From: Halobacteriovorax sp. JY17 | Lineage (GTDB): Bacteria > Bdellovibrionota > Bacteriovoracia > Bacteriovoracales > Bacteriovoracaceae | NCBI RefSeq assembly: GCF_002753895.1 | Contig: NZ_NJER01000003.1 | Coordinates: forward strand, 1-64,000 | Reading direction: 5' to 3' | Length of the DNA stretch: 64,000 nucleotides | Shown: piece after piece, positions 2,880 through 48,890 of the stretch | How the letters are laid out: every line of letters begins with the position of its first letter | How positions within the stretch are numbered: the stretch's first letter is position 1 | Made by a program: the position numbers and the translations under genes | Notes under the pieces: generated by a model | Seen by the model: the letters and a program-made list of their open reading frames with translations, nothing else | Databases searched by the model: none | What the model was told of the DNA's origin: nothing

Positions 2880-5120
<2,241 letters not shown>

Positions 5121-5336: not shown

Positions 5337-6068
5337 ATGAGTAAAAATGAATTAATTCTTTGGTTGGGAGACTCCCACGTAGAAACGATATCTATAAGGT
5401 GTTTCTTTATATGTAGATTACTTAGTTACTGCGAAGTAGACTTTGAAGTAAAGTGGGTTAAGCTTCCAGAAGAAGCAAAGAAACTCGATATCGAAGCAAA
5501 GCTTATACCTATTTTAAACATGGGTGGTAAGAAGTTAACTTGTCCTGAGATTATTGAGTTTTGCAGAGTACGAATAAATAAACTTGATAAAGAATTACTT
5601 TTTCCAGATTATAGTTTAGTTCAAACGATTACTTTTCAATGGGCCACTACGACACTTCTAGGTCTCTATGTTAATTACGTCTATACATGTGACCAGACTC
5701 GCCAAAGATTCTTTAAAGACTTTAAAAATTCACATTCAGAGATTAATGATAAGAACTTACATCAAATTTCTCAACTCATGTCTCAATGGGTTGATCATTG
5801 CGCAAGTATCAACATACCAAAAGAAGAGTATGACAATCATGTCTTTCAATTATTAGAGCACTTTGATAATCAATTGAAAGATCATGATTTCTTTTTTGGA
5901 AATGTTATTTCAGCAACAGATATCGCTATTTTCAGTTTCGTTTTTCTTATATGTAATCCTCACATTCACAAGTTCAAAGAAAAGGTCAGACAATCGAAAA
6001 ATCTTTTTCAATGGAGCAAGAGAATGGACCACCTTACTCAGCACGAATATAGAAAATATAGAATTTAG
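5337..6068 (+). CDS. Glutathione S-transferase-like protein
   Basis: The 243-residue protein has the two-part layout of a GST. A thioredoxin-like N-terminal region (residues about 5-85) includes CEVDFEVKWVKL and a KLIPILNMGGKKLTCPEIIEF stretch that matches the 'P-x-L...S/T-x-x-I' glutathione-binding segment. An all-helical C-terminal domain follows, with FFFGNVISATDIAIFSFVF, the N-capping/hydrophobic staple motif of GST_C. It probably conjugates or reduces small electrophiles in the cytoplasm; the substrate cannot be told. Its end overlaps the convergent gene at 6065 by 4 bp. The upstream gap (5109-5336) must hold the promoters of this gene and of katG. No strong Shine-Dalgarno is visible before the ATG. 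Confidence 0.68.
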   Translation: MSKNELILWLGDSHVETISIRCFFICRLLSYCEVDFEVKWVKLPEEAKKLDIEAKLIPILNMGGKKLTCPEIIEFCRVRINKLDKELLFPDYSLVQTITFQWATTTLLGLYVNYVYTCDQTRQRFFKDFKNSHSEINDKNLHQISQLMSQWVDHCASINIPKEEYDNHVFQLLEHFDNQLKDHDFFFGNVISATDIAIFSFVFLICNPHIHKFKEKVRQSKNLFQWSKRMDHLTQHEYRKYRI

Positions 6069-6847
6069 ATTTTATATTTAGTACTAATTTTTAGAAGCTT
6101 TCCATTTGAAATGAGAGATTTAAATTCCTTATCAATAATTTTCTTTAATTTTTTTGAAAAGCTAAAGTTCTTATTTATTAGCCAAAAAAACTCTTCCTTC
6201 TCTGCTCCCTTAATTACTGAATATGAAATATCTGAGTACTCTTTGAGAGTTGGTAGTACTCTCTTTAAAACTTCAAGTCGGGTCAAGCCAATTTTACATC
6301 TCTTAGCACTTACAAGATCAATTATTCGCCCTAGTGCTTTTGATAATCTCTTTACTTCTTTACTTGGAATTCCAAAGTTTTTATATGTATATCCAGATTG
6401 ACCACATATTGGAGAATTCTTTAAAATTAAATCAGCTGTTTTCATCATTAATTTTTTATCATCACTTTTATGAAAGAAGTAAGCTGGAGTCATTCTATAT
6501 ATTGGAGTCGTTAAAAGATAGTTTCTTTCTCTTTCTTCGTTTGAAGCCGCGTCTAAAACTAAGTGAATATTTCCATCAATGGCATCCTTAAGGCAACGTT
6601 GCCAAGGTTTTATGACAAATTTAAATTTTATATTATTTTTCTTAAAGATCTCTTCAATAATATCTCTATTGTAGCCAGAGAATTCATAACCATTATTTCC
6701 CTCTGATTTAATGGGATTAGAGTAAGGCACCCATCCAGTATCCTCTGCACAGATATTAATAACCTGATCTTTTGGAATTACTGAGTCCGCGCCAAAAGCG
6801 CTAGAAGTGATAGAAAGTAAAAATAGAATAAAGCCTAATCTAATCAA
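6065..6847 (-). CDS. Periplasmic solute-binding protein, SBP_bac_3-like
   Basis: A 260-residue exported protein with a signal peptide ending near SSAFGA (residue 20). The mature part resembles family-3 solute-binding proteins: an opening strand INICAEDTGWVPYS, a GYNRDIIEEIF helix, a KPWQRCLKDAIDGNIHLVLDAASNEER region typical of the ligand lobe, and a lysine-rich C-terminal helix. Such proteins usually bind amino acids, but no permease or ATPase gene is nearby, so it may be a sensor or scavenger. It starts with TTG, supported by GAGGAT about 10 bases upstream. The ligand is unknown. Confidence 0.72.
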   Translation of the reverse strand: MIRLGFILFLLSITSSAFGADSVIPKDQVINICAEDTGWVPYSNPIKSEGNNGYEFSGYNRDIIEEIFKKNNIKFKFVIKPWQRCLKDAIDGNIHLVLDAASNEERERNYLLTTPIYRMTPAYFFHKSDDKKLMMKTADLILKNSPICGQSGYTYKNFGIPSKEVKRLSKALGRIIDLVSAKRCKIGLTRLEVLKRVLPTLKEYSDISYSVIKGAEKEEFFWLINKNFSFSKKLKKIIDKEFKSLISNGKLLKISTKYKI

Positions 6848-7025: not shown

Positions 7026-7511
7026 TTGAAAACGATCTTCATTATATTAATAACTTACTCAAGTATCATAACTGCAAGTGAGGTATCTCCTCAGGCCAGT
7101 GATATGAAATTTATCACAGATTTTACAACTTTCTCATGCAAGAGTTTTAGCGATAAAGTCAGTGCACCAGATGATATAGTCGACCTCCAAGTTGAATACA
7201 CAAAACTTGGAATTTCAAGCTCAACTCGTCGAGTTTTAATTGATATAAAATCTCTAGATGGAGACTGTTTTTATTCTGCAGATTATTCAAGAATAAAGGG
7301 AACAACTCAACTAAACTTTGAAAAATCCTACATGACGAAGACTACAAAGTGCTCTACCTTAAAAGATAAACTAGATGAAATTATGAAACCAGGATTTAAA
7401 TATAGAATAAAGTTCAACGCTTATATCTCAATGTTATTTCTAAAAAAAATGAAAGGTCAGTGTGAAGATGTAAGTGGAAATAACTTAATCGAATTTCAGT
7501 GGATATTATAA
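7026..7511 (+). CDS. Small exported protein, unknown family
   Basis: I do not recognise this 161-residue protein. It starts with TTG at 7026, preceded by a GGGG-rich ribosome-binding site, and begins with a signal peptide (MKTIFIILITYSSIITA, cleaved near residue 17). The mature part has four cysteines (in FSCKSF, GDCFYS, TTKCST and GQCEDV), probably two disulfides, and alternates short beta-like stretches such as VLIDIKSLD and YRIKFNAYIS. This suggests a small disulfide-bonded beta-rich periplasmic or outer-membrane-associated protein. It stands alone, facing the RND operon, with a shared terminator at 7512-7538. Confidence 0.7.
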   Translation: MKTIFIILITYSSIITASEVSPQASDMKFITDFTTFSCKSFSDKVSAPDDIVDLQVEYTKLGISSSTRRVLIDIKSLDGDCFYSADYSRIKGTTQLNFEKSYMTKTTKCSTLKDKLDEIMKPGFKYRIKFNAYISMLFLKKMKGQCEDVSGNNLIEFQWIL

Positions 7512-7538
7512 AAGAAAAGGCCCGATGGGCCTTTTCTT
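7512..7538. terminator. Bidirectional factor-independent terminator
   Basis: A perfect 12-bp inverted repeat, AAGAAAAGGCCC (7512-7523) and GGGCCTTTTCTT (7527-7538), with a 3-base loop. The A-rich and T-rich arms make it work on both strands. It separates the convergent genes ending at 7511 and 7537, and its right arm overlaps the RND stop codon. Confidence 0.88.
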
Positions 7539-10500
7539 ATTTTACAAATTTCTCTTTTCCACTAATTCTACTTATAAAATCCTTTGCCTTATAAACAAGT
7601 AAGTGGACTACTGGAACGAGAAAGTAAGTAAAGATAATTGAACCAATCATCCCTCCAATAATTACTGCTCCCATCGCAGACTTAATTTTATCTAGTGCAA
7701 ATAACTGAGGAAGAGTTCCTGCAATAATCGCAATTGAAGTCATTAAAATAGCTTTTAATTTTTCCTTTGCTCCAAGCCAAATGGCTTCTCGAACTTCTAC
7801 TCCTTCTACTATTTTCTGCTGAGCATACTCAATCATCAAGATCGCATTGTTTACAGCAAGACCAACAACCATAACCATTGCCATCATCGATCCAATATTA
7901 ACCGTTTGATCCGTAAAGAACATCAATGTAATAGACCCTAGAAAAGATGTTAAAATCGCAGACCCAATAGATAAAGGAAAAACAAAGGAATCAAGAACTG
8001 CAACAAGTAACATATACGTTAAAACCACAGCAAGCATAAATGCCTTTCCAAGCTCTCTAGAAGATTCGGACTGATTCTCAGCATTTCCAGTATAGGCATA
8101 CTTAATACTTGCTGGAAGTTTTGCTTCTTCAAATTTAACAGAGAGCTCCTTCATAACTGTACCAGTATTAGATTTCGCAAGATAACCATTCAACTGAATA
8201 ATACTCTCCTTATCTCTTCTCTTTAATGGGGAAGTTGCCTCTGTAAACTTCACCTCACCAAGTGTTGCAATAGGAATAAGTCCATCTTTTCCGTGAATCA
8301 AGAAAGAATCAAAATCTTCAACATTCTTTTTAAAGTCATCACCCAGAGTTACGTTAATGTCGTATTCCTCTCCATCCTCTTTATAAACAGAATCATCATT
8401 TCCATTAACAAGACCTCTAATAACTTGCCCAATCTGAACATTTGTCAAACCTTGTCTGATAATCTTTGAAGAATCCGGATTAAATTGAATTTCCATTTTT
8501 GGGACGCGGTAAGAACTCTGAACGGAACCAAAATATCCACTATTTGCCATAATTTCTTTCATCTTCTCTGAAGTCTTAACCATCTCAGAAAAGCTACTTC
8601 CAGTAACATCAATCGTAACATCGCCAACATTCCCAGAGCTTGAGCTACCACCAGAGAGAGTAATCTCAGCTTCAGGAATTTTAGTTAAATCAATTAAAAG
8701 ATCACTCATAAGAACATCATAACTCTTAGCTCTCTCACTGGCAGGAACTAAGCTCACGCTAACTCTTGCCTTCTCTTCACCATCATAACCAATGTCAGCC
8801 AATGTACTTTTTACTTCTGGGTAATCTTTTAGAAGCTCATCAACTTTAGCCACAACAGTTCCTGTTTTCTCAACTGGAGTACCATCAGGCATTACAATTG
8901 AAACAGTATATTCATCGCGGTCAGACTTAGGAACAAACTCCGAACCTAATCTACTCCCAGGAAAAACAATTGAATAGAAAACCGCAAGAGCAATAAGTGT
9001 TGTGAGAATAGGCCAATCCATCATTTTATCAAAAAACCACTTATATTGTTCTGTAAGCCAAGCAATGAATTTATCCGAAAGGCGGGCAATTTTTGGAAAA
9101 GGTCCCTTTAAAGTAGTAGGGTCTTTCAGGAGAATCGAGCAAAGCATTGGAGTCAAAGTAACTGATGCCATTATTGAAAATATTGTTGCGTACACAACAG
9201 TCATTCCAAACTGAACCATGAATTGCCCCACAATTCCTCCCATGAATGCAAGAGGAGTGAAAACAACAAGATTTGTACCAGAAGAAGCAAAAATTGCTAA
9301 GAGAACTTCCTTTGTTCCATCAATAGCTGCATCTTGAGAATTCTTCCCTTGTTGAAGATGTTTATAAATACTTTCGATAATAATCAAAGCATTCGCAATA
9401 AGAGTCCCAAGACAAGTACCAAAAGCAAGCAATGTCATCATATTTATTGAGAAGTCAGACATGTCCATTATAAAAAATGTTGAAATAATAGAGGTTGGAA
9501 TAACTACTGCAGCGATAACCGCACCTCTCCAGTCCCCTAAGAAAACAAGTAAGATAACAATGGTAAGCACAATACCGAGTAGAATACTTTGAATCGTACC
9601 GATTGTATTATCTAAAGTAATCCTAGTTGTATCAACTGCAACTTCAAGTTTCATTCCTTCTGGCAGCTCCTTCTTAATTACTTCTAATTCAGTTTTTAAA
9701 GTTTTAACAATTTTAACAGCGTCACCATCAGATAATTTTTTAACAGCTATACCAACAGTGTCTTTACCATTAAATCTCGCGATAGAATCAACGTCTTTAT
9801 AACTATCAGTAACTCTTCCCACTGATGAAAGTTTAATTGTTCGCCCTTCTTTAGATACTATAGGAAGATTTTCAATATCTTTGACGCTTGAAAATTCACC
9901 TACAAATCGTACACTAACTTTTGAATCTTTCTTATTAATTGAGCCACCAGGAACATTGAGGTTCTTTCTGGCCATTGAATTGATGACATCTTCAATAGAG
10001 AGATAATTTTGAATTAGTAAATTATTATCTAAATCAACATTAATCTCCCTCTCTCTACCTCCAAAAATATCAACAGTGGCGACGCCATCAATTGCCGATA
10101 GTCTTGTCTTCAACTTCTTATCTGCAAACTCATATAGCTCTGTTAAGTTATGCTTATCACTCATAAGAGATAGGTTTGCTATCGGTTGAATGAGAGGGTC
10201 AAATTTTGCAATAATTGGTCGGTCTGCACCATCAGGAAAGTCATTAATAATTGCTTCAACTTTATCTTTAACCTCAATCGATTTAATATTAACATCAGCT
10301 TCAATTAAAAATTGAATAGTAACAACTCCATAACTATCACGCGCCTCTGATTGAATATTTTTAATTTGAGAGATTTCAGAAACAGCATCCTCAACTCTCT
10401 TTAGCACTTGAGTTTCAATTTCCTCAGGAGAAGCTCCGCCATATACAGTTTGCACGGTTATAATAGGAAACTCAACCTTAGGAGTTGGCTCAATAATTAA

Positions 10501-10587
10501 ATTACCAACAGAGACAAGACCCATCACCATAAAAATGGCAATAAAGATGATTGTTGTTGCTGGACGTTTTACAAATATTTCAATCAT
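7537..10587 (-). CDS. RND-family efflux transporter lacking the TM4 aspartates
   Basis: At 1016 residues this is a full-length inner-membrane RND pump of the HAE1/AcrB type. It opens with MIEIFVKRPATTII, has two large periplasmic loops and 12 membrane helices, and keeps the YGGASPEEIE and TPMLCS signatures. The energy-coupling residues are changed. The TM4 motif, normally G-x-L-V-D-D-A-I-V, reads GTLIANALI, so both aspartates (AcrB Asp407/Asp408) are Ala-Asn. The TM10 Lys940 position is Asn (GLAVNNAIL) and the TM11 Arg971 position is Lys (KLKAILMTS). The gene is last in the marR-tolC-adaptor-RND operon, 3 bases after the adaptor stop. It is either an RND member with another coupling mechanism or a non-pumping homologue; the open frame argues against decay. 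Confidence 0.9.
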   Translation of the reverse strand: MIEIFVKRPATTIIFIAIFMVMGLVSVGNLIIEPTPKVEFPIITVQTVYGGASPEEIETQVLKRVEDAVSEISQIKNIQSEARDSYGVVTIQFLIEADVNIKSIEVKDKVEAIINDFPDGADRPIIAKFDPLIQPIANLSLMSDKHNLTELYEFADKKLKTRLSAIDGVATVDIFGGREREINVDLDNNLLIQNYLSIEDVINSMARKNLNVPGGSINKKDSKVSVRFVGEFSSVKDIENLPIVSKEGRTIKLSSVGRVTDSYKDVDSIARFNGKDTVGIAVKKLSDGDAVKIVKTLKTELEVIKKELPEGMKLEVAVDTTRITLDNTIGTIQSILLGIVLTIVILLVFLGDWRGAVIAAVVIPTSIISTFFIMDMSDFSINMMTLLAFGTCLGTLIANALIIIESIYKHLQQGKNSQDAAIDGTKEVLLAIFASSGTNLVVFTPLAFMGGIVGQFMVQFGMTVVYATIFSIMASVTLTPMLCSILLKDPTTLKGPFPKIARLSDKFIAWLTEQYKWFFDKMMDWPILTTLIALAVFYSIVFPGSRLGSEFVPKSDRDEYTVSIVMPDGTPVEKTGTVVAKVDELLKDYPEVKSTLADIGYDGEEKARVSVSLVPASERAKSYDVLMSDLLIDLTKIPEAEITLSGGSSSSGNVGDVTIDVTGSSFSEMVKTSEKMKEIMANSGYFGSVQSSYRVPKMEIQFNPDSSKIIRQGLTNVQIGQVIRGLVNGNDDSVYKEDGEEYDINVTLGDDFKKNVEDFDSFLIHGKDGLIPIATLGEVKFTEATSPLKRRDKESIIQLNGYLAKSNTGTVMKELSVKFEEAKLPASIKYAYTGNAENQSESSRELGKAFMLAVVLTYMLLVAVLDSFVFPLSIGSAILTSFLGSITLMFFTDQTVNIGSMMAMVMVVGLAVNNAILMIEYAQQKIVEGVEVREAIWLGAKEKLKAILMTSIAIIAGTLPQLFALDKIKSAMGAVIIGGMIGSIIFTYFLVPVVHLLVYKAKDFISRISGKEKFVK

Positions 10588-10590
10588 AAT

Positions 10591-11253
10591 TTACTCCACC
10601 TTCTTAATGACTAAAACTTTTTGTTCGTCTTTTAAGTATCTCTGATCACTAACCACTATTTCGTCTCCAGCTTCAAGGCCAGATTTAATTGCGTAGTAGT
10701 CATCATTGTTTCCAGAAAGAACGATGTCTCTTAGTGTGACTTTATTTTTATTCTCTACAATGAAGACATGTGCTTTCCCACCTCTTGTTGAAACTGCTGC
10801 TCTTTTAACTACAACTGATTTTTCAAGGTGTCCTATCTCCACTTGAATAACAAGAGATTTCTTAGCGATTATATTTTTAGAAAATGTAATCTCAACAGTA
10901 TACAACCCCGATAATTGGTCAACTTCTTCTGAAATGAATGAGACCTTTCCATTATAAATAACATCATCTCTTGTAATTCTTGCTATTGCTCCAATTTCAA
11001 GTTTTGATGAGACCTGAGGAGCGACAAGAGATCTAACAACACGATTTCTTGCTCTCACTCCAGTTAAAGTGACTGTATTTGACAATGATCTTCGACTTGC
11101 CACTTCAGTAAAAACAGGAACTCCATTTTCTTCCCAATACTTATAGAGAGTAGGAACATCTTTATTATTTGCCTTCTTTACTTCCGCAGCTTTCCAAAAA
11201 AGCCCCCCGGTGTAAATGGCAACGGTAATTAGTAAGAATAATACTTTTTTCAT
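10591..11253 (-). CDS. Short membrane-fusion (periplasmic adaptor) protein of an RND system
   Basis: A 220-residue protein with an N-terminal membrane anchor or signal (LFLLITVAIYTGGLFW). It keeps the beta-barrel domain of periplasmic adaptors (around KLEIGAIARIT to LSGLYTVEITF, residues about 85-125) and the membrane-proximal domain (VVKRAAVSTRGGKAHVFIVE to GLEAGDEIVVSD, about 148-208). The usual lipoyl domain and alpha-helical hairpin between the N-terminal strand and the barrel are absent, which explains why it is about 150 residues shorter than HlyD/AcrA-type adaptors. It starts in a TAATG overlap with the upstream outer-membrane gene, so translation is coupled. How such a protein would contact TolC is unclear. 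Confidence 0.75.
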   Translation of the reverse strand: MKKVLFLLITVAIYTGGLFWKAAEVKKANNKDVPTLYKYWEENGVPVFTEVASRRSLSNTVTLTGVRARNRVVRSLVAPQVSSKLEIGAIARITRDDVIYNGKVSFISEEVDQLSGLYTVEITFSKNIIAKKSLVIQVEIGHLEKSVVVKRAAVSTRGGKAHVFIVENKNKVTLRDIVLSGNNDDYYAIKSGLEAGDEIVVSDQRYLKDEQKVLVIKKVE

Positions 11254-12551
11254 TACTTACCCCTCTCAGGACTTGTCGTCGTAAGTCGTTCTATGTCAAT
11301 AATTGTATTTAAAATTTCGAACTTAGTTCCTGCATAGCTAATTCTATTATTTGTTAAGAGTAGCTCACTATCGTTTAGTTGAAGCTGTGAAACTCCACCA
11401 GTAGCGAATGCCCCAAGAGATACCTTATATGATGAAAGAGCTAATTTAATGGCCTCTAATTCAGATTCAAGTTTTCTCTCTAAACTTTCTTTTTGCTTAT
11501 AGAGCTTTTCTAATTGAACTTTTTGATTTCTCTTTTCTTGAGTAAGCTGTAACTTTGCAATTCTTACTTCTGTTCTTCTGACTTGAATAGCATCATTCTT
11601 ACTACCACCGAATGGCCAATCGAATGTGAACATTAAACCAAATGTTAAATCTTCTTGTTCTTTGATTTTGTCTCCAAGAAATCCGTCTTTATAATTTGTC
11701 GGTGAAAATGTCGCGAAAGCATTAAGCGTAGGCATTCTATTGGATTTTTCACTTTCAATAGAAAGCTCTCTTAACTTTAAGTTCTCATTTAAGATTTTCA
11801 CGTCAAGATTATTTTCAACATTACTCGCATTTGAATCATCACGGAGAGAAATCTCTCTTAAAGATTCTTTTTCAAATCTAACTTCACTTCCTTCTTCAAT
11901 GGCCAAAAAATTTAGCAAATCAAGTTTCGCGAGATCAAGGTTTTTTTCCGAGTCAATCAGAAAAGGTCTTCGGCTTGCAATATCAGCCTGCATTTTTAGA
12001 TTATCATTACGACTAATTCGTCCGTACGAAACTCTTTTCTCAAGAGTTTTCTTATTTTGGTTTGCATTCTTAAATGAGTCTTTTGAAGCTTTAAGTAAGT
12101 CATTGCTATACAAAACTCTATAGTAGAGCTTTCTGGCAGTATTTTTTACGTCAGCTTGAGTTACAAGAGACTTCACTCTACTTAGTGACTCACTACTCTT
12201 TGCAATATCAATTGCACTACTTAGTTTGCCGAAAGTGTAGACAGGTTGAGTGACTCCAATAGAGCCTTTCTCATTCCAGTCGTAAGCATTTGGAGCAGCA
12301 CTTCCCTTACCTCTAGTTTTTTGAATTTGAGCCTGTAGTGAAAGAGTTGGATATAGAGATGAAGTCGAAGCTTCGACTTTTGATTTTGCGATTTCAATTT
12401 CAGCGCTTGAAATTCCAATGGCCTCATTTCTCTTTAAGGCCATTTCAATAACTTTTTCTTCATTTAGACTAATTACATCGGCGCTAACAGAACTAGATAC
12501 TAATAAAGAAAGAGTCACGGTCAAATTAAACTTATTCATTTTAAACATCAT
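11253..12551 (-). CDS. TolC-family outer-membrane efflux channel
   Basis: A 432-residue outer-membrane factor with a signal peptide ending in VSSSVSA. The mature part has the two OEP repeats, mostly long amphipathic helices (MALKRNEAIGISSAEIEIAK; KLQLTQEKRNQKVQLEKLYK) interrupted by short beta strands (PTLSLQAQIQK; LTFGLMFTFDWPF). It would form the trimeric outer-membrane duct of the efflux system whose other parts follow at 11253 and 10587. Two adjacent ATG codons at 12551 and 12548 follow a GGGGGAG site; 12548 has the better spacing, and MNKF at 12539 is a further option. The gene overlaps the end of marR by about 11 bp, so the two are co-translated. Confidence 0.88.
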   Translation of the reverse strand: MMFKMNKFNLTVTLSLLVSSSVSADVISLNEEKVIEMALKRNEAIGISSAEIEIAKSKVEASTSSLYPTLSLQAQIQKTRGKGSAAPNAYDWNEKGSIGVTQPVYTFGKLSSAIDIAKSSESLSRVKSLVTQADVKNTARKLYYRVLYSNDLLKASKDSFKNANQNKKTLEKRVSYGRISRNDNLKMQADIASRRPFLIDSEKNLDLAKLDLLNFLAIEEGSEVRFEKESLREISLRDDSNASNVENNLDVKILNENLKLRELSIESEKSNRMPTLNAFATFSPTNYKDGFLGDKIKEQEDLTFGLMFTFDWPFGGSKNDAIQVRRTEVRIAKLQLTQEKRNQKVQLEKLYKQKESLERKLESELEAIKLALSSYKVSLGAFATGGVSQLQLNDSELLLTNNRISYAGTKFEILNTIIDIERLTTTSPERGK

Positions 12552-13005
12552 GTACTCCCCCTTTACTCATACACGATTCGATGTACTCTAATTGTTCTAA
12601 TAATTTCGTTTTCTCTTCAGAGCTAAATTTTGACATTATTTCAGCAGTCATCTCAAAGTATTTTGGAATGACTTTATCAAGAACGTTCTTTGCCTTATCT
12701 GTGAGAACTAAAGTTCTTGCTCTCGAATCTGTCGGATCAATTCCTCTTACGATCAGTTCTTCCTTTTCAAGTCTTGAAATAAGTCCGGACATATTGGCCT
12801 TAGAAACGAAGAGTTCTTCAGCAATCTCTGTTGCTTTAAGTTCGTTATTATTTGAAAACTTCAAAACAAAGAGCACATCCATTTGAGGCTTCGTTAAAGA
12901 AAATTCACCAATAGACTTCGTAATCATCTTATCTAGATGGCTAACTGTTCTGGCCATCCTTGCAATGATATTTATGTCTTGTCCTTCCAAACTTATTCTA
13001 CTCAT
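12541..13005 (-). CDS. MarR-family transcriptional regulator
   Basis: A 154-residue winged-helix regulator. The DNA-binding part covers about residues 35-105: LTKPQMDVLFVLKF, LKATEIAEELFVSKANMSGLISRLEKEELI (helix-turn-helix) and RGIDPTDSRARTLVLTDKA (the wing with the D-x-R signature of MarR proteins). The flanking helices form the dimer interface. It is the first gene of the efflux operon and lies directly below a pair of palindromes at 13018-13051, the natural site for autorepression that a bound drug or metabolite would relieve. Its ATG follows an AAGGTG ribosome-binding site. Confidence 0.92.
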   Translation of the reverse strand: MSRISLEGQDINIIARMARTVSHLDKMITKSIGEFSLTKPQMDVLFVLKFSNNNELKATEIAEELFVSKANMSGLISRLEKEELIVRGIDPTDSRARTLVLTDKAKNVLDKVIPKYFEMTAEIMSKFSSEEKTKLLEQLEYIESCMSKGGVHDV

Positions 13006-13017
13006 ACTTACACCTTA

Positions 13018-13051
13018 GTTAACATCTTAACTATAAAGTTAACATGTTAAC
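13018..13051. promoter_or_regulatory. Tandem MarR-type operator upstream of the efflux operon
   Basis: Two related 14-bp palindromes stand just before marR: GTTAACATCTTAAC (13018-13031, one mismatch) and GTTAACATGTTAAC (13038-13051, perfect). Their centres are 20 bp apart, two helical turns, so two dimers would bind the same DNA face. A candidate minus-strand promoter (TTGAGC, then TAACTT) runs through the second palindrome, so occupancy should block RNA polymerase. That the MarR protein binds here is inferred from position and symmetry. Confidence 0.75.
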
Positions 13052-13156: not shown

Positions 13157-13861
13157 TTATTGAAGTAAATCTTCGAGGCTCTTATAGTTCCCTGATTCAA
13201 TAACAGAAGTATTAGCCTTTTTGATTTTTTCTTTATTGGTATTACTCATTTTCTTACTTACGTGAATCCAATTTTTTTGATTATTTAAAGTGAAGATATT
13301 AAAGCTATTTTCACTCTTAATATTGTTCATTCTTAAAAAATATTCAAAAGCAGCTGATGAAACAACGACTAAGTCCACCCTATTAAGTAGAAGCATATGC
13401 AAAGACTTATTGTAATCTTGAACAAAGACTTGTCCTGGTTTTTCAAGGGCATCAAATTCTTTGGAATACTTTGCTCCTCTAATTAAAGCTATTTTCAAAC
13501 TACCTATCTCTTTAAGACTTTTAATCTTAATTGCCTTCTTAGTTATTAAATAGTTTATATTCCCAAGAGTCGGAGTTAGCGCAGAAAACTCCCCACGATA
13601 CTTTTCTGATGGGTAGAATACGCCTAAGTCAACTTCCCCATCCTTAAGTAGCTTTATAGCCCTCGCATAAGGAACCAACGTATAAGTAAATTTTAATCCT
13701 GATCTCTCTTCTATTTTCTTACATAACTTATAGACTACTCCGTCTAAGTCTCCTTTTTCATTTATGTAGCTATAAGGGGGAACATCAAAAAGAGCGACAC
13801 GTACTTTAGCAAAAGAAGTAAAGACTATAAAAAATAAGAAAAGAGAAAGTAATACTTTCAA
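13157..13861 (-). CDS. Periplasmic solute-binding protein, SBP_bac_3-like
   Basis: A 234-residue exported protein with a signal peptide (MKVLLSLFLFFIVFTSFA). The mature part follows the family-3 binding-protein pattern: VRVALFDVPPYSYINEKGDLDGVVYKL at the start, LVPYARAIKLLKDGEVDLGVFYPSE in the first lobe, then KSLKEIGSLKIALIRGAKY and LLLNRVDLVVVSSAAF in the second lobe. It likely binds an amino acid or similar small acid in the periplasm. No ABC permease or ATPase is next to it, and it has its own transcription unit between the efflux operon and the exporter at 13938. Confidence 0.75.
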   Translation of the reverse strand: MKVLLSLFLFFIVFTSFAKVRVALFDVPPYSYINEKGDLDGVVYKLCKKIEERSGLKFTYTLVPYARAIKLLKDGEVDLGVFYPSEKYRGEFSALTPTLGNINYLITKKAIKIKSLKEIGSLKIALIRGAKYSKEFDALEKPGQVFVQDYNKSLHMLLLNRVDLVVVSSAAFEYFLRMNNIKSENSFNIFTLNNQKNWIHVSKKMSNTNKEKIKKANTSVIESGNYKSLEDLLQ

Positions 13862-39031: not shown

Positions 39032-42000
39032 TTATTCGTCATTCTCAGACTGGGCCTTTTCAAGTAAGAGCTTGAAATGATTAAGCCTAGTATTTTTGGT
39101 GTGCTTAGCCAGTTTCTGCCCAACAACTTCAGGAAGGAGTATATGCTTAGTATAGTAGTTAATTGCCTTTCCACCAGATTTGGTAGACCTTAGGGTTTCC
39201 CAGCTAAAATCCTTATCATCATAGAAGAAGAACTTTGTTATGGCCCAGTGAGAGTCATTATCATTTTTTAAGAACTCACTTGCGGCCGTAGCAGCAAATC
39301 TCTCGGCAAAGCCACCATCAGAGTCATCCTTAACAATAAGGTTTGCAACAATTTTAAGAACTTTTCCCTCAGCAGCTCGAGACGCCTTACCATTTGTAAT
39401 CAATGGAAGTAAGTATTCACTCTTTATCATATCTAAATTTTTTCTTGTATCTTCACTACCGTCTCTAAATAAGCGCTTAAAGTCATAGGCGGAAGTCATC
39501 TTACCTGCTTGATATCGAAGCTGCCTATACTTAGACTTCATTCTATTCCATTGTACTTTTTGCTTATCATTAAATTGATTATAACTTCTCTTATTAAAAC
39601 GACTTAAGAACTCGAGCTCTTCCCTCTTCTCTTCCTTTAAAAGATAGTCATCAAATAGCTTTGAAACATTTTTTGCAACAACCGCGTAGGCCATAATATC
39701 AGCAAGGCGAGTTGTCTTAAAAAAATCTTTTATATCACTAAGCTTCACTGCTTTATCCTGCTTATTCATCCATTGAAGCGCTCTTTTAAGTTCACTTCTA
39801 AAAACGACAAGTTCGGTTTCCATAGACTCCTTATCAAAGATAAGTCCCTCAGCTAAATATTCTCCTAGAACAGATATGAGATTTGCTAAGGCTTCCGTAC
39901 TAAACTCGCCTGAAACAATTGTTTCTCTAATGTCAGCAGAAGGGTTAATTTCATTTATCATTCCCCTTTTTCTAGAGAGAATTAAAATTTCATTTAAAAG
40001 CTCATTATCAAAGACTGCTGTTAAGATATTTCTATTTTCTTCAACAGAGAATTTTGAAGATAGGTTTTGAGAACTTGGGATTTTGTTTAAAATAAAGTTG
40101 CGAAATGAATCAAATAATACTTTATCAATATTTTCACTACACTTCTTTGCGTAATCACTTACCCAGTTTTTATGAAATACATTATCATTCCCAACTACTG
40201 AAATAAGTATGTTTAAGTTCTCTTTCTCAGCGCTTGAACCGTATTTAAGATTTTCTAAAACACTTCCGCTTCCAACCTTAAAATGGCTTTTTCTAAAAAT
40301 TGAAATAAGATCCGTCTCATTAGACGAGCTCTTTAGCGCGTCTAAGTATTTGTCCTTCATTTTTGAACTAATAACATCAGATTTCTTAATTTCACTTCCT
40401 ATTAAGAGAAACATATTTTCATGACAAATTTCACTCATCGATTCAGAACTTTCCCCTTTATCGTTTAATAGAGACTTGTTCTTTTGAATTTGTATTTCCG
40501 ATATATTCCTAGCAACATCAAATTCTGTAATAAGAAAACATCCCTTCATTTGACTTTCAAAATCGGATTCATCTCCCGACTGAGTAGGTATAAGTTTTAA
40601 GCACTCTTCAAAGTAATAAACGGGTGTTAAAATGTTATTCGCCTCAACAGAGGTTAAAGAAAAACTCTGTCCAACATCACTTTCAAGCTTCTGTTTCATC
40701 TCTTCAAAGAAGTTATTCTTCTTGGATAATCTCTTACATTTTCTTAGGTAATCACTAAATCGGATTTCTTCCCATTTTGGAGAATACTCATCTAAACAAC
40801 TTTGAAAACCTGAACTAGAACCAAGATTCTCTTTTTCATACAGCTCTTTTTCAAATGTTTTTAAGAATTGATTAGAGAAGAATTTAACTTTAAACTCGCT
40901 ATTTTTAACTCTTTGCTTATTAATATGAGATTCAATATTTCTATTTAAACTAAGTTTTGAGTCTCCTGCAACAGTAGAGAGAAGAGTCTTCTTTATTTCA
41001 CGTTTTTCTCTACTACTTATTTCTGAATTCTCCAATCTGTCTTCAATATAAAAATCCAAATAAGGAACGATGGCACTCTCTTCTATTTTAGATAGAACTC
41101 CTCTAAACTCAACAATACTTTTTAAGGAGCTAACCTCTTTTGAAATTTCTCTCTTGAGAACAGCTTCAAGGCTTCGAGATTTTTCTTCATTAAAAGAGTT
41201 ATAAGGATCTTTCCCTATAAGGAAGGAAGCGATCCCCGATGGAGCAACTTTCTTATAGGCCATCAACTGACAATCATAAGACTTTTCAACAAGAGAATTG
41301 GCAAGAGAAAGTAACTCATCTCCACTTGCTTTTTCCGATGAATAGCACTTATTATAATTTTCTTGAAAGACCCTCTTGTCTTCGTCATTAAAACGAACAC
41401 CGAGTTCTGGTGCTATTGACTCACTAATTCCCTGTAAATCTAGCTCTCCAGACTCTCTCTCAATAAACAGAAACGTCTTACTTAAACAGCTTTTCTTAGA
41501 TTCAACCGGACACAATTTGAATTCATTAATAGCTTTTACAAGTATATCCCTTGTAAGATTCTTTCTACGCCCTCTATCTTCTAGAAAAACTTCTAGAGCA
41601 GCTGGAATCTTTCTCTTAGATATTCTCTCTTCACAATTGTCTTTACTGTCTTTTTCTAAACAACTCGAGTGCTCTAACAAGATCTTCGTTCTTAAATTAG
41701 TAATAAGACTATCTCCAACTAAAAAAGATTGAAGTTTAAAATCATCATCGATACTTCTGGCCAATTCACTTGTAGATACATCTCTTTGGCTTTGTTCTAG
41801 ACATTGTCCAATATCTTTTACATCCACGACTAAAGGGATTTTAATCAGCCTAATATGTTCAACGTTTTGGAATAGCTCTCTTGAACTTAAACATGAAACA
41901 AGTCTTTCTTTAATAGCTTTTCCAGATAATTTTTCTTGAATAGATAGAAAATGATTCTTCTCGATATCTTCATTCAAAATCGTTTCAAGTTCAGAAATTT

Positions 42001-43021
42001 TTATACAATCGATTCTAGCTTGATCAAGAGTAATCTTAGAAGTTGAACTCTTTCTTGAAATAAGGCGATCATTCATACATTTAACAAATACTTCTTCGAT
42101 CTCAATAATATACTTAGACGAATTATAGAACTCTTTAAAATATAACTCATTATTAGTAATTGATTTAAAGAATCTTTCACTTCCATCAACTCGTACAACT
42201 TTTTCATGATTAACTTTATCATTTGAGAGAATAATTTCCCTCTTCGTATCTAACTTCGAAGCATACGTGTCTAAAACTTTCTTAGCACTCAACTTATTAT
42301 TATCTCTAAATACTTCTAACACGACTTTATTTGTGTTTTGAAGACCATTTTCTTTCTTCTTAAAAACAGTAATTGTATTTCGATCGTTCTTACTCGCCTC
42401 TAAAGTCATTAAATACTTCTCACTATCCTTAACATGATAAAAGTCTCCGTCTTTAATTATTTTTAGTTTGCTAATATCGCTCTTATTAGAGAAGAGTGAG
42501 AATTTTAAGATATTTAATTTATTATCAGCAATTGCACGAAGCTCTACAGGGCCTTTTCCTTCGATGTTGACTGTCGTCACAAAGAAGCTTCTTTGCTCTT
42601 TTAAATCCTCTTCAAGCTTTTGAGTTATTTCGCTTACGATTGGTGTTAGAGATGTTGCGGACTCCGGAGCGACATCAGCAAAAATAACAACATTACAACT
42701 TGAGCCGTCGAGATATTTTATATTTTCAACACTGGTTATTATTTCTTCGATTAAATTCTTTTTAAATTTTTTCTCTGTAAGAATTGTTGAAATAGAAGAG
42801 ATAACAGAGTCAATCTGTTCTACATCAGCTGCATCAAATCTCTCTTCTCTTTCCTTAGAGAAGAGACCACTCTTATACTTAATTAAAACTTTCTTATTTA
42901 GAGAGCTATAGTAGACTTCAACGTCTTTTGAAAAGCCATTACTTTCATACAGCTTCGTCCATACACTACCAAAAGAGTAAAGACTTACCAATAACGTAAA
43001 TAGTAGAAATAATGATTTCAT
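39032..43021 (-). CDS. Very large exported protein (1329 aa), unknown family
   Basis: I do not recognise this protein. It starts with a signal peptide (MKSLFLLFTLLVSLYSFGS) after a GAGGG ribosome-binding site, and the rest contains no further long hydrophobic helix, so it should be periplasmic or released. It is rich in Lys, Glu, Ser and Leu and almost wholly helical by eye, with about two dozen cysteines spread along residues 100-1000, several as C-L or E-C-L-K motifs, suggesting many disulfides. A more basic C-terminal region (from about 1150) includes KRSYNQFNDKQKVQWNRMK. Transcribed alone, it is divergent from the exported gene at 43188 and lies next to other orphan secreted genes. Confidence 0.78.
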   Translation of the reverse strand: MKSLFLLFTLLVSLYSFGSVWTKLYESNGFSKDVEVYYSSLNKKVLIKYKSGLFSKEREERFDAADVEQIDSVISSISTILTEKKFKKNLIEEIITSVENIKYLDGSSCNVVIFADVAPESATSLTPIVSEITQKLEEDLKEQRSFFVTTVNIEGKGPVELRAIADNKLNILKFSLFSNKSDISKLKIIKDGDFYHVKDSEKYLMTLEASKNDRNTITVFKKKENGLQNTNKVVLEVFRDNNKLSAKKVLDTYASKLDTKREIILSNDKVNHEKVVRVDGSERFFKSITNNELYFKEFYNSSKYIIEIEEVFVKCMNDRLISRKSSTSKITLDQARIDCIKISELETILNEDIEKNHFLSIQEKLSGKAIKERLVSCLSSRELFQNVEHIRLIKIPLVVDVKDIGQCLEQSQRDVSTSELARSIDDDFKLQSFLVGDSLITNLRTKILLEHSSCLEKDSKDNCEERISKRKIPAALEVFLEDRGRRKNLTRDILVKAINEFKLCPVESKKSCLSKTFLFIERESGELDLQGISESIAPELGVRFNDEDKRVFQENYNKCYSSEKASGDELLSLANSLVEKSYDCQLMAYKKVAPSGIASFLIGKDPYNSFNEEKSRSLEAVLKREISKEVSSLKSIVEFRGVLSKIEESAIVPYLDFYIEDRLENSEISSREKREIKKTLLSTVAGDSKLSLNRNIESHINKQRVKNSEFKVKFFSNQFLKTFEKELYEKENLGSSSGFQSCLDEYSPKWEEIRFSDYLRKCKRLSKKNNFFEEMKQKLESDVGQSFSLTSVEANNILTPVYYFEECLKLIPTQSGDESDFESQMKGCFLITEFDVARNISEIQIQKNKSLLNDKGESSESMSEICHENMFLLIGSEIKKSDVISSKMKDKYLDALKSSSNETDLISIFRKSHFKVGSGSVLENLKYGSSAEKENLNILISVVGNDNVFHKNWVSDYAKKCSENIDKVLFDSFRNFILNKIPSSQNLSSKFSVEENRNILTAVFDNELLNEILILSRKRGMINEINPSADIRETIVSGEFSTEALANLISVLGEYLAEGLIFDKESMETELVVFRSELKRALQWMNKQDKAVKLSDIKDFFKTTRLADIMAYAVVAKNVSKLFDDYLLKEEKREELEFLSRFNKRSYNQFNDKQKVQWNRMKSKYRQLRYQAGKMTSAYDFKRLFRDGSEDTRKNLDMIKSEYLLPLITNGKASRAAEGKVLKIVANLIVKDDSDGGFAERFAATAASEFLKNDNDSHWAITKFFFYDDKDFSWETLRSTKSGGKAINYYTKHILLPEVVGQKLAKHTKNTRLNHFKLLLEKAQSENDE

Positions 43022-44183: not shown

Positions 44184-47100
44184 CTACATAAAATCAACAA
44201 CACCTGGGTCTCTACTTATAATTAAAACCTTTAATGCATTTACAAATTTGTCAAATTCTCCAACTGTACTATATTCAGAAAGCTCTCTCACTACTTTATA
44301 GGCCATATCTCCAAGCTCTTTCATTCCAAAGATCTCGTCAATAGGAGCTGATGACCAAATAACTTCCGCCAGGGCTTCTTCTCTTGCTCCTTCGGCCTTA
44401 AATAATAATTTCTTAATCGCTTCAGGAGTCATATCGACAAATTCTTTAAATGAAGCTTGCTTATTCTTTCCTAATTTCCCAATAAATCCATTCATCTGCT
44501 CTGGAGTTATTTTCTGTGATGCGAATGTGTGTACTCTCTTAGCAATAGCATCTTGAAACTCTCCCATCTCTTTTGCTATTTTGGCAGACTTTGTTGCAGA
44601 AGCAGATAGAATTGCTTCATCAACAGTCTTATCAAATGCCTTTAACGCTTCAAAAGTTGTTTCTGCTGCTACGTACTTTGTTAGGCCAAATGTCTCTCTT
44701 GCTGTAGCTTTTGTCGACTCATATACTAGTCTAACTCTAGCATTTAAGAACTTCTTCATAATGAGACCATCAGCAAGATCATAGACCGCTCCAGAAACTC
44801 TATTTACGAATGCCGATGAAGTATTCTTTAAAACTCCACCAGTATGAGGTCCGCCTTCAAGTAGAACCATATAAGGAATTTCTCTTTTTCTAACTGGAAT
44901 CTTTACAAAGATATCAGATAGGTCTTCCATATTTTTTAAAAGGTATTCTGTTAGATCATCACCACGAGCGGCAACATCATCTAGCCCTTTGATCATCTTA
45001 TTCATCTTTGCTCCATTCTTCGCCAATTGCTCAAAACGAAACTTTCTCATCCAATTTGTTCCCCAAAGATACTCACCTTTATTTGCCTTTCTCATAACAG
45101 CTCTTGCGTGAACAAGTTTGTCGTGAGAACTAAACCACTTCGTTGAATATGACTTAAGAAGTCTCTGTAGAGCTTTCGGATTGTGTCCAAAGTAGTCAGC
45201 TACAACTTGCGCTGTCTGCTTATTAATCATCTCTGGTGTCTCTCTAACGACAACGTTACTTGTATATTCAAAAATTTCATCCGCTCCCATCTTTGCATTC
45301 TTCTTAAATGGAGCAAGGATTTTTCCAAGCTTTTGAGTCATTTGAGTCATTGTTATTTTTCCTCTCTTAAAGAGGTGTTTTACATTTTCCATCTCACCCA
45401 TTGCATTCTTTACAGCTTCTTCAGAAGCACCACTTCTAACTAGCTCTTTAGAAATACTCTCTACAGCTCTTGAAGCTTCATCTGAATTTCTCCCTAATGC
45501 CTTTGCCAAGTCATCTTGTAGAGACTTAAACCCTAGTACATATCTAGCAAAGCTTACGTCTGCCTCAGTTGCTACAGTCTTTCCAGCAATTCCGGCCATT
45601 CTTGAAGCTTTCTTGAATCCAACTTTACCAGTATTTCTAAGCATTGTTCTGGCCGAGATATAAGTCATCTTTGAACCTACTTTAACCGATCTTCCAACAA
45701 CTCCAACCATAGGAATAAGAGAAACTGCTTCAAAGATTGCCCATCCCCAAGTTCTAGAAACTTCATCAGAACTACCCGAAGTAGCAAAACCCATATCTTC
45801 CATTCTCTTAACTTTTTCTTCATTCTTATCTGCATCAAGTTTACGATCAACTTCTCTATAAACAAGAGTCAACTGCATTGTTAGAGCTGATGTTCCCGCT
45901 GCAATCATAGCAATTCCAAGAGGTGCACAAAGACCACCTGTAACTCCAGTACAAGCAGAGCCAATGATAATAGCAGCTACACCTAAGAAACCTGCTCCAA
46001 GACCTAGCCACATATCAGTCCACTCTTCATCTGACATTGAATTGATTTTATCTAAAACATTTTCTGGTACTCCAGGAAGTCCTGCCAGTTGATTAAGTTG
46101 ATTTTGAGCCTTAGAAGTCGCATAAAATAGTGTCTTCATATCTTCATGTGTATTTGGCTCCATATTACAAAAATCATTGAGGTTATTTAAAACCTTAAGT
46201 TTTCTCACCTGTGCTGCTTCTCTTATAAGATCTTTAAAGATTGGAGTTTTTATTCCATTATCTAAAGAGAGGAAGTTCATCTTAGCTGAGAATTTATTGT
46301 CGATTCCATTTTCAGAAGAAAAATCTTCAAACATAGAGATTTGCTTATCTACATTTCCTCTATTCTTATAAAGATCTAGAAAGAATTGACCAATTTGTCC
46401 TTCATCACTCTCGAGAACATCATCAATTTCATCCCATGCTTCCCCAGAAATTCTTGAATTATACTTACCTTCATACTCTTCTACGTTATCTCTTGTTAAA
46501 AGAGTTTGATAAGAGAGGTCTTCAAGTCTTGAATAGTAACTCTTTCCTTTAAGTTCTGTTTGGAAAATATTTGAGTTTTCTTCATTCACTCTCTCAGCAA
46601 TATCATTCCAAAAGTAGTCTTTCTCATCTGTAGAAAGGATTTGATTGGCATAGCTTGGAACTAAAATCGTATTGATTTTAATCTTCTTTGCAGCTTTCTC
46701 TAGCATTTCAATATGCTTCTTTACATTATCTCTTTGAATTCTTGTTTCGCTAGAAACTCTCTTTCCTCTTCTTGTCTGAATATAATTTGGAGTTATCCCC
46801 TCTTCAACGTGCTCTAATTCATCAAGAGCGACCAAGTAGCTCAATCTCGCTGATGCCCAAGGATTTAAAGCTTGCATCTGCCCTGTGAGAAAATCATACT
46901 CATTCATAAATCCAAATGAAAAATCTGAGTTTCCACGATTTACATTCATATTCCAAATATATCCAAAAACTGGATAATTATTTTCTAGCTTCATTTCTTC
47001 TAATCTTCTAAGTGGAACAAAATCAGAAGTAGTCGTGAACTCTTTTAAGTAATCTGCCATTTGAGCAACAATATGCTTTCCTTTACCGTCCTTACAAATA

Positions 47101-48890
47101 TCGCTTCCTCTTCCAACATATTGGCAAGCTATTTGAGCGTCTCTGTAGGCCTTATCCGTCTTTACAACTTCTCTATTAGACTCTAAATAAAGAGCAATAT
47201 TTTTTAGTGCCCAATTTCTCCACACTGCGGCTCCATATAATGAAGGCATTTTAATCTTAGACTTATTCTTAGATAGCTTGTTAACAAGCCTTTCTGACAT
47301 TATTTCTGTATAGTGAGTAGCACCTTTTTTCTGCATTAATTCTGTTAAAAACAAAGAAAGATTTTGTCTTTGTGTATTGATCGACCCCATAGAACCATCT
47401 TTTAATTTTGTTTCATAAATTTTTTCCGCAGATGGTTTTTCAAAGAACTTCTGAAACTCAGTTCCAATATTATAAGTATAAGTTCTAGCGGCAGCATGCT
47501 TTCCACTTCTTCTATTATAGTTTGCTCTTGTCTTCCCCTTAAATACCTGCATTGCCTCAGGAAGTTTCATTTGAACAACTGTTTGGTAATGAGAAACATC
47601 GTCAATATCAGATTTTGTAAAGTGACTTCCGTCTCTAGCATTTCTAAGAGCACTCTTATATTCTTCAAATGGAAGTAAACCTGAGTATCCCATTTTTGTT
47701 GGGTCTTTATCTGCATTATCCATGAAGTATTCAAGATATTGATAGTTATTTAAATTAAAAGTAAGCCCATGCCCAGACATGATATTTTGAAGATAAGTAT
47801 CTCCCTGTCCTTCAACAAAGTTAAACTTAAATTTCTCAGGAAGACTTCCATTGAAGTGAGATTGACATGACTTTGGAATATCTACCGCGTCTTCATCACC
47901 TAGCATTGCTTGATAAATATAAACTTGAGACATCATCATATGAAGTGTAAACCACTTAAGAGCTCTTACATAATTTCTTTTTGTTGGTGTTTTAACAAGA
48001 GTTAGAACATCACGAGAGAGAACTTCACTTTCGTTGAATACGAGACGAGACTTTCCCCAAGACTCATCTAAAACAGATAAGTGGTACGGGTCAGTTTGCT
48101 CATCTGGTCCAAGAGTAATTAACTTTCTTTGATCAATTTGATCTTCATCGATTAAATCAGTTGGAAATTCAGGTAATAATGACTCGTAGAAGAATTTTCC
48201 ATCATACTCTCTATCAACATATGAACGCTTTGATACAACAAGATCTCTCATTGGAAGAAGTACTCCTCCAAGATACTTTACAAGTAGGTCTCTTCTAACT
48301 TCTTCTTCTACTTCATCGTCGTATAGGTATTTCTTTAATTCATCTTTTAAAGTTTTAGCTTTCTTACTTAAAGAAGTTAAAAGCTCATCTTTCGCTCCAA
48401 GAGAAGGTATTTGATCTTCTTTCTCTTCTTCTTCAAGCTTCATTACTTTTTCTGCAAACTTTTCTATATGACCTTTTACTCTTTTTGGAACACACTTTTC
48501 AGCTTCTTCTTTTGCCAAGTTTGCATCAAATGTATAAAGGTATTGACCACAAGAAGCCTCATTAATCCCCTTAACAATTTTCTCCCAATTACTTAGAGTA
48601 TTTTCATCATAAGCAACAACGTCTTGCGAATCAAAACCAAATAGATCTTCTTCTTCTGATTCTTCTTCATTAACTGCTCTCTCTAAAGTATCTACTTCAT
48701 CTGTATTACAAACGGCCTTCAGATCTTTTCCTTTAATCGAATCTTTAAAATCGCTAATTTCTTTTAATAATTCTTCAGTTGAAAATTTGTGAGGTATATT
48801 TGCCGAAGCAGGGACACGAAGTAGCGTCTCAGCGAAAGCTAATTGGAAAGAAATTAAGTAAATTAGTAGTGCAGAGATAAATCTCTTCAT
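44184..48890 (-). CDS. Giant exported protein (1568 aa) with internal hydrophobic segments, unknown
   Basis: Not a family I can name. It opens with a signal peptide (MKRFISALLIYLISFQLAFA) behind an AGGGG site. Residues about 20-950 are mostly soluble and acidic, with stretches of Glu and Lys. A strongly hydrophobic region at about 960-1000 (GLGAGFLGVAAIIIGSACTG...LGIAMIAAGTSAL) and a second near 1045-1065 (IFEAVSLIPMVGVVG) are glycine/alanine-rich, like the membrane hairpins of pore-forming or transported toxins. The last 500 residues are helical and lysine-rich. The layout fits a secreted effector or a membrane-inserting envelope protein. No immunity-like or secretion gene is adjacent. A hairpin (48899-48915) covers part of its ribosome-binding site. 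Confidence 0.78.
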   Translation of the reverse strand: MKRFISALLIYLISFQLAFAETLLRVPASANIPHKFSTEELLKEISDFKDSIKGKDLKAVCNTDEVDTLERAVNEEESEEEDLFGFDSQDVVAYDENTLSNWEKIVKGINEASCGQYLYTFDANLAKEEAEKCVPKRVKGHIEKFAEKVMKLEEEEKEDQIPSLGAKDELLTSLSKKAKTLKDELKKYLYDDEVEEEVRRDLLVKYLGGVLLPMRDLVVSKRSYVDREYDGKFFYESLLPEFPTDLIDEDQIDQRKLITLGPDEQTDPYHLSVLDESWGKSRLVFNESEVLSRDVLTLVKTPTKRNYVRALKWFTLHMMMSQVYIYQAMLGDEDAVDIPKSCQSHFNGSLPEKFKFNFVEGQGDTYLQNIMSGHGLTFNLNNYQYLEYFMDNADKDPTKMGYSGLLPFEEYKSALRNARDGSHFTKSDIDDVSHYQTVVQMKLPEAMQVFKGKTRANYNRRSGKHAAARTYTYNIGTEFQKFFEKPSAEKIYETKLKDGSMGSINTQRQNLSLFLTELMQKKGATHYTEIMSERLVNKLSKNKSKIKMPSLYGAAVWRNWALKNIALYLESNREVVKTDKAYRDAQIACQYVGRGSDICKDGKGKHIVAQMADYLKEFTTTSDFVPLRRLEEMKLENNYPVFGYIWNMNVNRGNSDFSFGFMNEYDFLTGQMQALNPWASARLSYLVALDELEHVEEGITPNYIQTRRGKRVSSETRIQRDNVKKHIEMLEKAAKKIKINTILVPSYANQILSTDEKDYFWNDIAERVNEENSNIFQTELKGKSYYSRLEDLSYQTLLTRDNVEEYEGKYNSRISGEAWDEIDDVLESDEGQIGQFFLDLYKNRGNVDKQISMFEDFSSENGIDNKFSAKMNFLSLDNGIKTPIFKDLIREAAQVRKLKVLNNLNDFCNMEPNTHEDMKTLFYATSKAQNQLNQLAGLPGVPENVLDKINSMSDEEWTDMWLGLGAGFLGVAAIIIGSACTGVTGGLCAPLGIAMIAAGTSALTMQLTLVYREVDRKLDADKNEEKVKRMEDMGFATSGSSDEVSRTWGWAIFEAVSLIPMVGVVGRSVKVGSKMTYISARTMLRNTGKVGFKKASRMAGIAGKTVATEADVSFARYVLGFKSLQDDLAKALGRNSDEASRAVESISKELVRSGASEEAVKNAMGEMENVKHLFKRGKITMTQMTQKLGKILAPFKKNAKMGADEIFEYTSNVVVRETPEMINKQTAQVVADYFGHNPKALQRLLKSYSTKWFSSHDKLVHARAVMRKANKGEYLWGTNWMRKFRFEQLAKNGAKMNKMIKGLDDVAARGDDLTEYLLKNMEDLSDIFVKIPVRKREIPYMVLLEGGPHTGGVLKNTSSAFVNRVSGAVYDLADGLIMKKFLNARVRLVYESTKATARETFGLTKYVAAETTFEALKAFDKTVDEAILSASATKSAKIAKEMGEFQDAIAKRVHTFASQKITPEQMNGFIGKLGKNKQASFKEFVDMTPEAIKKLLFKAEGAREEALAEVIWSSAPIDEIFGMKELGDMAYKVVRELSEYSTVGEFDKFVNALKVLIISRDPGVVDFM

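Follow-up and report, generated by a model that had tools for sequence, protein, structure and literature searches.

The D407/D408-K940 proton relay of AcrB-like RND pumps was lost once, on the stem of a single clade, and this loss is a lineage trait of one separate branch of AcrB-like RND proteins, not decay. A member of the clade is encoded in the window, i.e., the whole stretch of 64,000 nucleotides of Halobacteriovorax sp. JY17 DNA analyzed here, together with an adaptor reduced to a fraction of the usual architecture.

In AcrB-like pumps, Asp407 is regarded as a protonation site that cannot be dispensed with, and the cohesion of tripartite pumps is ascribed to the lipoyl and hairpin domains of their adaptors. 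A clade that lacks Asp407 and both of these domains while under purifying selection represents a natural experiment on the roles of the RND transmembrane domain and of the adaptor, and makes the question of energy coupling directly testable. The pump, shared by relatives of the predatory Bdellovibrio and by gut alphaproteobacteria with tiny genomes, presumably works on another principle or is not a pump of the usual kind.

The fold, the operon type and hairpin-less adaptors are already known. In the open-access papers searched, no description was found of a clade without Asp407 whose adaptors are cut to the anchor, membrane-proximal and beta-barrel parts, nor any account of relay-less RND pumps, truncated adaptors or Bdellovibrio RND pumps.

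The four-gene operon and its RND protein

The operon comprises four intact ORFs in one direction, overlapping or a few bases apart, in the order marR, tolC, adaptor and RND gene (Table 1). The earlier note had described an operon of open frames in which tolC and marR are kept, and the intact ORFs and their Pfam matches bear this out. The same order is usual in clade neighborhoods. In the loci read there was one RND gene per operon, with no second RND gene of the MdtBC type.

Table 1. Coordinates of the operon and of the residues discussed, with the basis of each assignment.
Feature	Position in window	Strand	Basis
Relay-less RND inner-membrane protein, AcrB fold	7537-10587	(-)	ORF, 1016 aa; Pfam ACR_tran E=1.4e-207, 692 bits
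K943, TM11 (AcrB R971); basic throughout clade	7759-7761	(-)	Alignment
N913-N914, TM10 (AcrB K940-N941)	7846-7851	(-)	Alignments
T438-N439, TM5, conserved polar pair; N439 clade-specific vs V/I/L in closest relatives	9271-9276	(-)	
Codons gcg-aat of A398-N399 (AcrB D407-D408)	9391-9396	(-)	Sequence and alignments
T395, TM4; clade-invariant; L/I/M in most outside pumps	9403-9405	(-)	Alignments
Mini-adaptor	10591-11253	(-)	ORF, 220 aa; partial TIGR01730 match; AF2 model
Adaptor N-terminal transmembrane anchor helix, residues 2-29	11167-11250	(-)	AF2 model
TolC-like outer-membrane channel	11253-12551	(-)	432 aa; Pfam OEP E 4.9e-44
MarR-family regulator	12541-13005	(-)	154 aa; Pfam MarR_2 E 3.6e-12
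Palindromic MarR-operator-like site GTTAACATGTTAAC-n6-GTTAAGATGTTAAC	13018-13051	(.)	15-nt inverted repeat, 93%

The operator-like palindrome sits just before marR, and its outer edge coincides with the end of the originally flagged stretch. The box GTTAACATGTTAAC is also found before marR in L072, with a similar box in L070, and its score was above that of all 200 shuffles.

Genes for two family-3 solute-binding proteins flank the operon at 6065-6847(-) and 13157-13861(-); both are kept beside it in the same-genus relative L070, not farther out. A small secreted-looking ORF (7026-7511(+)) is convergent with the pump gene, and an unassigned ORF of similar size occupies the same place in L041, L042 and L070. 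The window also contains two very long ORFs, 39032-43021(-) of 1329 aa and 44184-48890(-) of 1568 aa.

By its ACR_tran sequence family and its AcrB fold, the window protein is an AcrB-like (HAE) RND protein. Its AF2 model (pLDDT 82) keeps the porter, docking and TM domains, i.e., the full AcrB fold, with a TM-score of 0.89 to AcrB and Z about 51 over about 989 residues.

TM4 of the pump reads LGTLIANALIIIE, in which A398-N399 align with the Asp-Asp pair of solved RND pumps. The codons and this alignment confirm the replacement of the TM4 aspartates by Ala-Asn that had been noticed earlier. When compared with GX3DX6E, the TM4 motif of AcrB-like RND pumps (PMC5719797) with its titratable Asp at 407 and often another at 408, the segment GTLIANALIIIE retains the Gly and the Glu, and the Asp is gone. 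The position of Lys940 holds Asn913.

The relay-less clade, its retention and ordinary pumps

In the first search, the RND homologues from Bacteriovoracaceae-type genomes showed 45-90% identity, and those from metagenome assemblies of gut alphaproteobacteria, among them Candidatus Enterousia, about 38-40%. Among 63 distinct homologues aligned, neither relay position holds an acid in 62. The residues at 407/408 were S-N in 36 proteins, A-N in 23, and I-N, V-N, T-S and T-D in one each; reading the TM4 motif by pattern leaves out L097. The K940 position is Asn in 61 of the 63 and the R971 position is Lys or Arg in all of them.

In a maximum-likelihood tree of 66 proteins, 38 members of the relay-less clade fell on one side of a single branch with SH-aLRT 100, a value to be read with some care given the quick method and the long outgroup branches. 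A clade profile applied to 291 Bdellovibrionota genomes gave 1318-1672 bits for members and at most 776 bits for all others; the eight top-scoring outsiders read all carried D-D and the Lys.

The single T-D member (L163, genome G489) branches from within the clade, which makes a later origin the simplest view of its Asp at 408. In this protein, residue 439 is His, residues 913-914 are Ser-Thr and residue 950 is Ala. Joint change at 408, 439, 913 and 950 is as expected if these sites touch, and, judged from the aligned residues, the whole combination may be a compensatory set that arose inside the relay-less clade.

Two further records deserve mention. A contig labeled as a Clostridia MAG (L074) carries a Bdellovibrionota-type operon and is probably mis-binned or mislabeled. 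Genome G030 has two copies of the relay-less operon (L045 and L036), with RND proteins about 64% and 46% identical to that of the window.

Asp407 was kept in all 65 outside pumps read, which were taken from Bdellovibrionota, from spirochaetes and from those genomes of the alphaproteobacterial order that carry no clade member (two row pairs being the same gene). In the window genome, seven of the eight other RND proteins were read, all with Asp407. In the outside pumps, the D408 position is often G, S, N or A, and the K940 position often N or L. Loss of D407 is the diagnostic change; Asn at D408 or K940 alone is not, because each occurs in ordinary pumps that keep D407.

Part of the original description was adjusted by these controls. 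The Asn residues in place of D408 and of the TM10 Lys are present as described, but neither is diagnostic or unusual by itself. Likewise, the TM11 Arg is indeed Lys (K943), but the site is basic in every clade member.

The clade was found in Bdellovibrionota and in one order of gut alphaproteobacteria with genomes of 0.6-1.1 Mb, where 171 of 201 genomes carry a member; more than 180 genomes have a match in the clade score range. Of 398 genomes drawn across Pseudomonadota, two carried the clade, both belonging to the known alphaproteobacterial order. In a sample of 59 genomes searched with a general RND profile, nearly all alphaproteobacterial carriers were without another full-length RND protein, G306 being an exception. 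The pump is therefore retained where genes are shed, and since a second full-length RND gene is mostly absent, its function is probably important in these small-genome bacteria.

Two other readings were considered and rejected. Plasmid-borne mobile spread was examined by tblastn on plasmids; within the 5000 records covered, the pumps matched had about 30% identity. A heteromeric RND partner was found neither in the operon nor elsewhere in nearly all sampled alphaproteobacterial carriers.

Selection on the pump is strongly purifying. Its dN/dS lay between 0.03 and 0.12, except for a single near-identical pair at 0.14; that of the adaptor ranged from 0.06 to 0.22 where computable, one near-identical pair aside, with dS near saturation for several pairs.

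The loss of normally essential residues and the truncation of a partner could suggest a decaying or non-functional gene. This reading is refuted by the present data and is hardly credible, in view of one ancient origin, presence in more than 180 genomes, dN/dS of 0.03-0.12, intact frames and retention in genomes below 1 Mb. The window pump does not deviate alone as a pseudogene, its loss being shared by 62 of 63 homologues in one clade, and the proposal of a distinct RND subclass is supported.

The mini-adaptor

The match of the window adaptor to TIGR01730 is confined to the C-terminal portion of the profile (positions 199-321 of 322, below the model cut-off). Its AF2 model, with a mean pLDDT of 92.5, consists of the anchor helix followed by beta structure. 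Neither a lipoyl domain nor an alpha-helical hairpin is present in the sequence or the model of the protein, in agreement with the loss noted earlier for this 220-aa adaptor. The best fold match was BesA (4kks; Z 16.6, rmsd 4.3, 177 of 275 residues), and residues 43-218 match BesA, AcrA and MexA structurally. As modeled, the protein is made of the membrane anchor, membrane-proximal and beta-barrel parts of an RND adaptor (MFP/PAP).

A short adaptor was present in 85 of 85 clade locus records with an adaptor in reach (some genes having been fetched twice), and hence in every clade neighborhood read, so that short adaptors do travel with relay-less pumps. Their open frames span 196-276 aa from stop to stop and at most about 250 aa from the likely start, with the exception of L049. 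The adaptor of that locus (4522-4959(-), 146 aa) is the shortest of all and may also have lost the beta-barrel.

Adaptors of the outside pumps measured about 311-517 aa where recognizable. One seeming 219-aa adaptor beside a D-G pump (L187) was rejected: the gene is HAD-like and forms an insertion behind a long adaptor.

The transmembrane site, possible mechanisms and known systems

In AcrB, the substitutions D407A/N, D408A/N, K940A and R971A abolish activity (PMC5546932, PMC4359379). As D407A/N, D408A/N and K940A are all inactive, the standard proton cycle is unlikely in the clade. Several inactivating changes at once, combined with strong selection, argue that the clade couples differently or not at all.

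Conservation in the clade that its nearest relatives do not share was seen at T12 (TM1), T328 and T331 (TM2), T391, T395 and N399 (TM4), T438 and N439 (TM5), T468 and S475 (TM6), Q839, E845 and T857 (TM8), S881 (TM9), N913 (TM10), Q961 (TM11) and K969 (TM12). E405 (E414), S471 (S481) and, in most members, T950 (T978) are kept from AcrB. TM1, TM5, TM6 and TM8 are more conserved in the clade than in ordinary pumps, and TM4 and TM11 somewhat less. Within the clade, TM4, TM5, TM6 and TM10 make up a core of strong conservation. From these alignments, an uncharged Asn/Thr cluster (T395, N399, T438, N439, N913, N914) would replace the charged relay.

The earlier note had allowed that other acids might fill the relay position. 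In the sequence alignment, on which alone this point was judged, no clade-conserved acid was found at or beside the relay positions. Conserved acids in the TM helices are limited to E405, which equals AcrB E414 and is normal; Asp or Glu at 920, where ordinary pumps are acidic as well; and E837, E841 and E845, placed by alignment at the start of TM8.

Another reading is that protons still drive the pump by way of different residues, such as the pair E405-K943 (E414-R971 in AcrB) with water, or E845. The clade retains E405 together with a basic residue at 943, and E845 is invariant and clade-specific. However, E405 and the basic residue are found in ordinary pumps too, and mutants of D407/D408 are not rescued by them there (PMC5546932); by alignment, E845 lies away from the relay. 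Such a path was considered unlikely.

The favored reading is that of a conserved four-gene envelope export operon encoding a TolC-linked exporter whose cycle runs on the rebuilt neutral site; it was given close to an even chance, the probabilities of all mechanism readings being a judgement and not a measurement. The pump would assemble as a trimer with TolC, and a small amphiphile would be moved out of the periplasm under MarR control. The transmembrane cycle would not be driven by protonation of D407/D408; coupling or gating could take place instead at the neutral polar site T395, N399, T438, N439, N913, N914 and T950, perhaps with a different cation, Na+ being a possible ion.

With regard to Na+, 96 genomes in the alphaproteobacterial order were searched for NqrB/RnfD (PF03116); 94 had none and the other two gave weak below-cut-off matches; a Na+ pump of that type therefore gives no support to Na+ coupling there. 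In genomes near the window, NqrB/RnfD was present in nine of ten carriers but also in many non-carriers, and is therefore not decisive.

The AF2 model of the pump matched largely O-state protomers best in Foldseek, which is weak evidence as it concerns one predicted monomer. Against the favored reading, an O-state-like model could equally mean a frozen state. It would also suit an unenergized, ligand-opened conduit or facilitator, in which a neutral (protonated-like) pump lets periplasmic or membrane substrates flow down their gradient into TolC. Replacement of Asp by Asn or Ala mimics the neutral state, and the hairpin-less mini-adaptor suggests looser coupling to TolC. A passive conduit, however, should not need a TM core under strong constraint with new invariant Asn and Thr residues, nor does it fit easily with the sole full-length RND protein of most alphaproteobacterial carriers. 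This reading was rated as somewhat unlikely.

The same constraint argues for the favored reading: a mere anchor should drift in the TM region, whereas the relay region is instead kept with new invariant neutral residues. A sensor or scaffold, in which ligand binding by a non-transporting RND protein would affect the envelope or TolC, was judged quite improbable. It would account for the joint loss of the relay and of the TolC-reaching adaptor parts, but none of the porter, docking and TM domains has been lost, tolC remains adjacent in the neighborhoods read, and the MarR gene with its operator already provides the operon's own transcriptional sensor.

In terms of classification, the most unusual reading would be an RND subfamily in which the proton relay gave way to a neutral Asn/Thr ion-binding or gating site, and whose TolC-coupled export, with a minimal two-domain adaptor, is driven or just gated in a manner new to AcrB-like pumps. 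This description is put forward tentatively, with less than an even chance.

When compared with AcrAB-TolC/HAE-1 systems (AcrB, MexB, AdeB, MdtF), the clade has in common the full AcrB fold, ACR_tran, and an operon with adaptor and TolC. It retains the equivalents of E414, the basic R971 site, S481 and mostly T978. In contrast, D407 and D408 are replaced by A/S-N and K940 by N, identity is 20-23%, and the window pump stays under the cut-offs of the NCBIfam RND models matched (634 bits vs 1250 for the best). HAE-1 adaptors have the lipoyl and hairpin domains, whereas the mini-adaptor has neither.

BesABC of Borrelia burgdorferi likewise has a hairpin-less adaptor and a tolC-adaptor-pump operon (PMC2279261, PMC3807786). 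BesA keeps its lipoyl domain (PMC3807786), which is absent from the mini-adaptor, and the clade therefore differs from the BesABC type. Spirochaete pumps with adaptors of similar length (311-331 aa) keep Asp407, BesB itself being outside the sample.

Ordinary D-N, D-S or D-G RND pumps share with the clade an Asn at the D408 and/or K940 positions. They keep D407, as did every one of the 65 read, whereas the relay-less clade does not.
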